This document shows, one piece after another, positions 21,828-56,735 of a stretch of 64,000 nucleotides of DNA. The DNA is from Paludibacter jiangxiensis. GTDB lineage: Bacteria > Bacteroidota > Bacteroidia > Bacteroidales > Paludibacteraceae. The position numbers were made by a program, and so were the translations under genes. Under the pieces are notes generated by a model. It saw only the letters and a list, made by a program, of their open reading frames with translations, was not told the origin of the DNA and searched no databases. The stretch spans positions 24,063-88,062 of the forward strand of contig CAMDGD010000002.1 in the NCBI GenBank assembly GCA_945897785.1, given 5' to 3'. Each line of letters begins with the position of its first letter. The stretch's first letter is position 1.

Positions 21828-22223
21828 TAGTTGCTGTATTAGGTAAGTTGCTGTGAATCCAAAAAAGAATACATTGTATTAAATATGAATTTTGAATCAA
21901 AATAAAATCTTGATGGAGAAGAGTTGAATCACATCATTTAAATAATAGTTACCATCAAAGCCCAACCATATCAAAAAATGAAGAACCATATTACATAATT
22001 AGAAATACCCCACCAAAAGGGACAAGTTAGGAAGAATGTCAAATATATTCAATTGTAAACAAATAGAAATCAGCTTTATATAAGAGTCCTTAGCAATGAA
22101 ATGGTTTCTAAACTAAAATAACCATTTTTATTTTTCAAAAAAACAACCTATCTTAGTTGAATAAAAGAAATAAATAAATGGATTAATTTATTAGTTCCCT
22201 TATCTAAAATTTACAATTACACT

Positions 22224-22898
22224 ATGACTATCAACCTAAAAAGAGAACAAGAAAGTACACTACAAAGACCTTGTTTAACCTATAGTTTGGCTTCTCAGGT
22301 ATTTTTTTTCGGAATGGATGTATTGGCAGGTAGAAAAAACAGTTTGCAGAAAGCTAAATTACTAGAAATACTTGCATCGGTACCATATAGAGAGTGGGAA
22401 ATTAAACAATACTACACATTGTCGTTAAGCTATTTTGCTAAAAAGAAAGTAGATTGGGCTCAAGAAATAATGCATTGGGGAAGACAGGCTCAGGATAATG
22501 AATATATGCATTTACTCTTGATAGAAGAGAAAATGAAAGAAGATAAGCTGAAAAACAAATGGTTTTTATCCACACCCATCGTTTTACTTATTCTTTTTAG
22601 CTATGTATTTTTTTCAAAGCTAGTGGCCTGCATAAATATTAAAACTGCCTTTGCCTTTAACGGTGCTTTCGAAGACCACGCCGAACATATTTACGCACAT
22701 ATGGTACAAGAAAATCCTCAGTGGGAAACTCAAAAAGCAAACAACCCTACCGTAAAAGAATATGGAGATTTCTCTAACTGGGCCGATGTGTTTCGTCGCA
22801 TCTCGTTAGATGAAAGAGACCACAGAAACCACAGCTTTTACTACCTTAACCAACCAGAAAAAATTGTGTCATATGAAGGGATGCCCCCTTTAAAATAA
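22224..22898 (+). CDS. Alternative oxidase / plastid-terminal-oxidase-like di-iron quinol oxidase
   Basis: Motifs LLEILASVPY (E48), DNEYMHLLLIEE (E93, H96), FNGAFEDHAEHIY (E150, Y157 at +7), LDERDHRNH (E197, H200): the E, ExxH, E, ExxH ligand set and spacing of AOX/PTOX; hydrophobic stretch 113-146. Confidence 0.85.
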   Translation: MTINLKREQESTLQRPCLTYSLASQVFFFGMDVLAGRKNSLQKAKLLEILASVPYREWEIKQYYTLSLSYFAKKKVDWAQEIMHWGRQAQDNEYMHLLLIEEKMKEDKLKNKWFLSTPIVLLILFSYVFFSKLVACINIKTAFAFNGAFEDHAEHIYAHMVQENPQWETQKANNPTVKEYGDFSNWADVFRRISLDERDHRNHSFYYLNQPEKIVSYEGMPPLK

Positions 22899-23045
22899 TT
22901 TTATGGCATAATGCTTCAACAGGAAAATGCCTTAACTAGCTAAAAAAGCCTCCGTTTTTTCAGCGCGTAAAGCACAAAACTTGCGCTAAGAAAAACTTCC
23001 ATTTGGGGCAAAAAAATACTATCTTAGCAGATAGTAATAAATTTT

Positions 23046-23399
23046 TTGGAAGAAAAAAGCTTAATTCATGATGCAGTCAAACTATCTTATAAGCGGTATA
23101 TAATTCTTTCAATAGTATTTGTTATTTTTGGAGCTTTTCGCTTTATTATAATCTATATCAATTGATTTTGCCGTTTTACCTAGCCATAGAGGAAATATAC
23201 TAGCCTTACATCTGTTGCTTTTTATGGAAGCATACGTAAAGCAGTCTTGCTACAAAACGCTTTTTACCATTTGCCGACTGAACTCTCGATAAACAAAACA
23301 TTTTTAAACTGTGGCTACCGTTTTAGTGGAACATTGATAAACAATACACAAATAGCCGGCACAATTGAGAGTATGAATGTGTGGTATAAACTTGCTTAA
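23046..23399 (+). pseudogene. Degraded small membrane-protein gene
   Basis: Single frame reads LEEKSLIHDAVKLSYKRYIILSIVFVIFGAFRFIIIYIN*...*...* then [65 protein letters not shown] and two TAG interrupt it in the middle. Confidence 0.4.
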
Positions 23400-23408
23400 A
23401 AAATACAG

Positions 23409-56297: not shown

Positions 56298-56343
56298 AAA
56301 AAAGTAAGCCATCAACAATAATGCTGATGGCTTACTTTTTTTT
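56298..56343. terminator. Convergent bidirectional terminator between the araC-type gene and ssrA
   Basis: AAAAAAGTAAGCCATCA-loop-TGATGGCTTACTTTTTT; ends 2 nt from the tmRNA 3' CCA. Confidence 0.85.
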
Positions 56344-56344
56344 G

Positions 56345-56735
56345 TGGACCTGACGGGAGTCGAACCCGTGTCCAAACGAGGAACTAACTTGCTTTCTACA
56401 TGCTTATCTTCGCTTAAGTTTTCGAAATAACACAAGACCGAAGCCACCAATGTTATCCTTAGTCTTTTAATTTCACCAAAGAATCAAGACCTTTCTTTGG
56501 CTATCCCTGAATTTTCTACACCGCTTGATCGGACGCTTTAGGGCGTAGCTTCCGAGCGATGTCTCGTCCTATCACATGTGACCGGATAAAGTTTAATCTA
56601 CTATAATTCGATTAAGCAGCAAGAGCGTAATTATTTTCGCCAGTTAAAATGTGCCGACTATGATTTAAGTGCTATCCGACAACGCACTGCATGCTTACAA
56701 ATCACCTCTACCCGCTGTCAAAACCAAACAGGCCC
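56345..56735 (-). ncRNA. ssrA: Transfer-messenger RNA (tag encodes GENNYALAA-stop at 56612..56641)
   Basis: Reverse strand begins GGGCCTGTTTGGTTTTGACAGCGGG and ends GGACACGGGTTCGACTCCCGTCAGGTCCA; GGGCCTG pairs with CAGGTCC; internal GGCGAAAATAATTACGCTCTTGCTGCTTAA. Confidence 0.95.

Follow-up and report, generated by a model that had tools for sequence, protein, structure and literature searches.

Paludibacter jiangxiensis carries, at positions 22224-22898 (plus strand) of the 64,000-nucleotide stretch analysed here (the window), an uninterrupted 224-aa open reading frame with an ATG start, whose motifs raise the question of whether a member of the Bacteroidales encodes an alternative oxidase (AOX) and, if it does, what such an enzyme would do there and where it came from. 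Based on ORF inspection, Pfam, profile and fold searches, alignment and a tree, the product is predicted to be an AOX-superfamily di-iron quinol oxidase.

The window protein belongs to the AOX superfamily

The preliminary description of this locus had read the product as an AOX/PTOX-superfamily di-iron protein, which Pfam, profile, fold and tree all bore out. The HMM search it had proposed against the Pfam AOX family (PF01786) matched the window protein at 35.1 bits (E=1.4e-8), above the curated cut-off of 22.7 bits, and all 10 members of a first alignment (A1, ten Bacteroidota sequences) matched the same family; NCBIfam held no model fitting the protein. A search of the PDB with the single sequence returned chance ribonucleotide reductase matches only, and an alignment profile was required: the A1 profile detected trypanosome AOX (TAO; 3vv9) at E 2.9e-4, with NExxH in register on E162/H165, DExxH on E266/H269 and FEDHAEHIY on LEEEAVITY. 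Moreover, when an AlphaFold model built from A1 (mean pLDDT 83.9, pTM 0.83) was compared with the PDB via Foldseek, ranks 1-13 were all trypanosome AOX (E 7e-5 to 8e-4), and in a fold search of viral models cyanophage PTOX came at rank two.

The ligands were compared in a 28-sequence alignment (20 Bacteroidota sequences, three alphaproteobacterial AOX, TAO, two Nostoc and two cyanophage sequences). All six di-iron ligands, E48, E93/H96, E150 and E197/H200, were invariant (28/28), as was Tyr157, seven residues past the third Glu and equivalent to TAO Y220; homologues at 42-66% identity kept every ligand. Each motif lay where the preliminary description had placed it, all on the plus strand: Glu48 in LLEILASVPY, overlapping KAKLLEI (22350-22370), which also holds the quinol-pocket residues Lys43 (the TAO R118 position) and Leu47; Glu93 and His96 in DNEYMH, the NExxH motif being NEYMHL (22497-22514); Glu150 and Tyr157 in FEDHAEHIY (22668-22694), together with His152, common to PTOX at a position where AOX has Glu; and Glu197 and His200 in LDERDH, the DExxH motif being DERDH (22809-22823). 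Within the quinol pocket Leu47 and Ala153 are retained, while position 43 is Lys in 20/20 Bacteroidota sequences and Arg in 8/8 others. In the TAO structure, Arg118 and Glu215 line the inhibitor/quinol pocket.

A Bacteroidota clade apart from AOX and PTOX

With trypanosome, plant mitochondrial and alphaproteobacterial AOX the window protein shares the fold, the six ligands, the Tyr, the quinol-pocket Leu and Ala, NExxH and DExxH. It differs from them in Lys43 for Arg118, Trp58 for Gly and His152 for Glu215 (EDHA for the EEEA motif), is 15-18% identical to trypanosome AOX over the fold match, and comes from a host not expected to make ubiquinone. On the other hand, the ligands, the E-x-H-A His two residues past the third Glu and the Pro-Tyr after the first Glu motif are shared with PTOX of cyanobacteria and cyanophages, the host of the window protein being non-photosynthetic; here the differences are the pocket Lys for Arg and about six additional residues before the NExxH helix, and the window protein has no counterpart of the ~20-residue insert that precedes the DExxH helix in the Nostoc proteins.

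The phylogeny against PTOX, mitochondrial and proteobacterial AOX that had been suggested earlier placed all 20 Bacteroidota copies in one distinct clade (99/100), with the copy of genome G667 outermost. Long branches part this clade from PTOX and from AOX, and its distance from PTOX is about that between PTOX and AOX; the deep branching order is uncertain, because the tree program flagged the long branches. Thus the label "PTOX-like" given in the preliminary description held for the profile-profile comparison, where PTOX was nearer by E-value (6.9e-12 vs 4.8e-9 for AOX), but not for the tree, where the clade is not close to PTOX. On all the sequence and fold features that were open to testing, the window protein falls within the AOX superfamily but in neither named subfamily: both the canonical (mitochondrial/proteobacterial) AOX and PTOX are set apart by the separate clade and by Arg at the Lys43 position. 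Within the clade, the window protein grouped with six Paludibacter-type sequences (100/98). When the copies from the window's family were constrained to one clade, the AU test rejected the tree (p 0.012), and therefore some exchange or differential loss inside the Bacteroidales is likely.

Distribution and genomic context

Homologues were sought in 61 relatives first and then in the whole family (358 genomes), where nine genomes from three genera carried AOX. A profile search found it in 11/394 genomes of the order, while PF01786, searched for in genomes spread across the phylum, matched 2/398, namely the window genome and G667; none was found in 14 control genomes. These searches confirmed the earlier supposition that AOX is rare in Bacteroidota. 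A 2025 survey (PMC7618691) reported AOX from Pseudomonadota alone and PTOX from Cyanobacteria alone, and in open-access papers we found no report of AOX from Bacteroidales or Bacteroidota. Therefore AOX has apparently gone unreported from this phylum, and database entries may already carry the AOX label through automatic PF01786 annotation.

In the window, the AOX gene is solitary, with alaS on one side, a PerM-type transporter gene on the other and no respiratory neighbour. Of the flanks described earlier as a non-coding stretch and a pseudogene, the left one stood: 21828-22223 is AT-rich (GC 0.255) and non-coding, with no long ORF and no homologue among the loci compared, and a weak Bacteroidetes -7-like site (TATCTTAG, at 22149) within it is a near-consensus match only. 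On the right, ORF inspection of 22899-23408 gave broken reading frames, a possible gene remnant; "pseudogene" is plausible but unproven, because the flank has only broken frames and matched no ORF in the compared loci. Three same-genus genomes without AOX retain PerM, the 3' side of which is different in each: the locus is a variable junction, compatible with gain or loss, whether old or recent. In one of them (G002; L067:5456-6159) the place of AOX is taken by two small genes resembling, by eye, an HEPN/nucleotidyltransferase (MNT) toxin-antitoxin pair. A PerM gene also adjoins AOX in G1123; it was dropped as evidence of an ancestral shared locus because its product is only 27% identical to the window PerM. 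Elsewhere in the window, a tmRNA gene (56342-56735, minus strand, 146 bits) was the sole Rfam match.

Several other carriers place AOX beside respiratory or regulatory genes. In G032 and G379 it adjoins a complete nqrA-F operon with a Fur-family regulator near, and the G032 neighbourhood also holds rubrerythrin; in G304 and G307 AOX is followed, at about 0.1-0.9 kb, by a gene for a Fur-family regulator; and in G667 AOX is embedded in a nuo operon, flanked by NuoD and NuoE/NuoF. Neighbours are variable in the remaining carriers. In genera g243 and g336, AOX is adjacent to or one gene from a conserved membrane protein of ~820-840 aa (L042:11351-13804, L045:4785-7298, L047:827-3304), by eye a spermidine-synthase-like fusion, with radical-SAM-like genes also near. 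Outside the phylum, two Nostoc plasmids carry an AOX/PTOX gene near a gene for a "hexameric tyrosine-coordinated heme protein" (L024:215-496, L025:1122-1403), and on plasmids p3 of Azospirillum and pR1b of Sphingomonas a globin gene comes after an AOX gene (L071:1238-1675, L072:1298-1744).

Respiratory gene content of AOX carriers

Neither CydA nor haem-copper oxidase subunit I was found in the window genome, which holds a complete nqrABCDEF on contig 31. Since the genome is about 86% complete (85.8%), an oxidase may have been lost to a gap in the assembly; nine further AOX carriers also lacked both oxidases, including the 96-99% complete G032, G786 and G792. Several COX1-family matches in other carriers sit in reading frames of 745-768 aa, a length that would be typical of quinol-dependent NO reductase. 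Nqr was present in 19/20 AOX carriers, and the remaining carrier, G667, has Nuo.

AOX carriers of the order tended to be without cytochrome bd: CydA was found in 2/10 of them vs 242/334 order genomes (Fisher test p 0.0007; 0.006 counting only carriers surely within the sample; 0.026 by genus), in tests that ignore shared ancestry. The pattern recurred within genera, as in g237 (G786 and G1065 with AOX and without CydA, G991 with CydA and no AOX match) and g255 (G910 with AOX and without CydA, G804 and G1002 with CydA); the Paludibacter-type AOX carriers G302-G314 do possess CydA. Two of the three same-genus relatives of the window genome have neither AOX nor CydA, and therefore neither is essential in this genus. 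The three (G001-G003) also gave no NqrA match, whereas the AOX-bearing window genome has the nqr operon in full; within the genus, Nqr may be gained or lost along with AOX.

Proposed role and the quinone question

From the computed family, fold, ligands, clade, neighbours and co-occurrence we infer, with good though not full confidence, that the window protein is a haem-free, non-pumping menaquinol:O2 di-iron oxidase of a Bacteroidota-specific clade, paired with Nqr and standing in for cytochrome bd. The protein, probably attached to the membrane surface, would receive electrons that pass from NADH via the Na+-pumping Nqr to menaquinol, and would transfer them through its di-iron site to O2, yielding water, in a step without proton pumping. 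AOX would thus act as the terminal oxidase of the window strain instead of cytochrome bd, and may be the only enzyme passing electrons from the membrane of this bacterium to O2; on exposure of an otherwise anaerobic cell to air, NADH and quinol would be held oxidised and O2 scavenged. The earlier suggestion of a non-pumping quinol oxidase for O2 tolerance is therefore supported as the best inference, while nothing specific in favour of its proposed role in NO tolerance was found in our analysis.

Two known systems offer parallels. In P. gingivalis cytochrome bd has a comparable O2-tolerance role (PMC4668044); the CydAB of anaerobic Bacteroidales would share with AOX the function of a quinol:O2 oxidase, but it is an electrogenic haem enzyme of more than one subunit and of unrelated sequence. 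In the anaerobic protist Blastocystis AOX buffers O2 (PMC6204527), likewise serving as a sink for O2 in an anaerobe that has no cytochrome-driven electron transport, but there the enzyme is eukaryotic, mitochondrial and linked to complex II, while that of the window is bacterial and paired with Nqr.

The quinone is the weakest step of this proposal. Ubiquinone is essentially confined to Pseudomonadota (PMC13386864), so that ubiquinol is unlikely as the substrate. Among the 20 carriers, MenD above the cut-off was found in only three (G307, G309 and G894) and MqnA/D in two more (G892 and G1123); in the window genome (G000) neither MenD nor MqnA/MqnD was found, and a MenA-like prenyltransferase scored just under the cut-off (99.6 vs 102.15 bits). 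Nearly all carriers have Nqr and MenA-like prenyltransferases, although most gave no match to MenD or MqnA/MqnD. The carriers would thus be quinone scavengers or users of another quinone route. Gut Bacteroides are documented to scavenge quinone or DHNA (PMC5738691), and Men pathways are often incomplete (PMC4746308); together with the MenA-like gene, this makes menaquinol from a scavenged precursor the likeliest substrate.

Alternative explanations of function and origin

The scarcity of quinone synthesis genes also speaks for another function, namely that of an AOX-fold di-iron oxidase that scavenges O2 or peroxide with electrons from a non-quinol donor (soluble reductase, rubredoxin or ferredoxin). 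This reading would also accommodate the clade-wide Lys in place of the quinol-pocket Arg (TAO R118) and the rubrerythrin and Fur-family regulator of the G032 neighbourhood, but it leaves aside the retained pocket residues Leu47 and Ala153, the quinone-requiring Nqr of 19 carriers, the position of the G667 gene in a nuo operon, and the MenA-like prenyltransferases and documented scavenging discussed above; we regard it as improbable. Still less credible is a di-iron hydroxylase or other ferritin-like enzyme in place of an oxidase, such as a COQ7-like quinone hydroxylase or an aldehyde deformylating oxygenase. Both have the four-helix di-iron superfamily in common with AOX and both appeared lower in the Foldseek ranking, but at E 0.2 and 0.08 respectively, against 7e-5 for the best AOX match, the family next after the 13 AOX matches being about 100-fold weaker; moreover none of the aligned sequences departs from the AOX Tyr or from the NExxH/DExxH motifs, and the Pfam search matched AOX and no other ferritin-like family, COQ7 included. 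A different ferritin-like family, which the preliminary description had named as an example of what would undo its assignment, was thus not the better fit, and a menaquinol oxidase of the AOX superfamily is the reading we retain.

As to origin, the lone position of the gene had earlier been taken to suit horizontal acquisition. A recent import, whether of PTOX from cyanobacteria or of AOX from proteobacteria or protists, would agree with the patchy presence of AOX (1/4 genomes of the window genus, 9/358 of the family) and with the varying sequence 3' of the PerM gene among same-genus relatives. However, the closest relatives of the window protein came from Paludibacter-type genomes of the same family (59-66% identity), the 20 Bacteroidota copies form their single clade behind long branches to PTOX and AOX, and the composition of the gene is mid-range for the window (GC3 0.342), with no import signal in its codons. 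Furthermore, the window protein had no match among plasmid and phage records; it was the more distant G667 protein that matched, with some 29-34% identity, a Nostoc plasmid AOX and a cyanophage PTOX. No donor outside Bacteroidota was seen; recent import is mostly refuted and the least probable of the alternatives weighed here, and the earlier argument from the lone position was not sustained.

Implications

Taken further, the clade may constitute a third AOX/PTOX subfamily, confined to Bacteroidota, specific for menaquinol (or another low-potential quinol) and marked by the Arg-to-Lys change in the pocket, which together with Nqr would form a short NADH-to-O2 chain free of haem oxidases and take the place of cytochrome bd in anaerobes, perhaps using scavenged quinone, as most carriers are without known quinone synthesis genes; we advance this wider view tentatively, rating it a little short of even. 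If true, such a menaquinol oxidase, being independent of haem, would also be handy in the laboratory. Two questions are now directly testable: whether an AOX uses menaquinol, and whether anaerobes can rely on Nqr plus AOX for O2 tolerance in place of cytochrome bd. A deep Bacteroidota clade would be a third branch of the enzyme, beyond the ubiquinone and plastoquinone worlds, and therefore has a bearing on the time and the lineage in which the enzyme originated.
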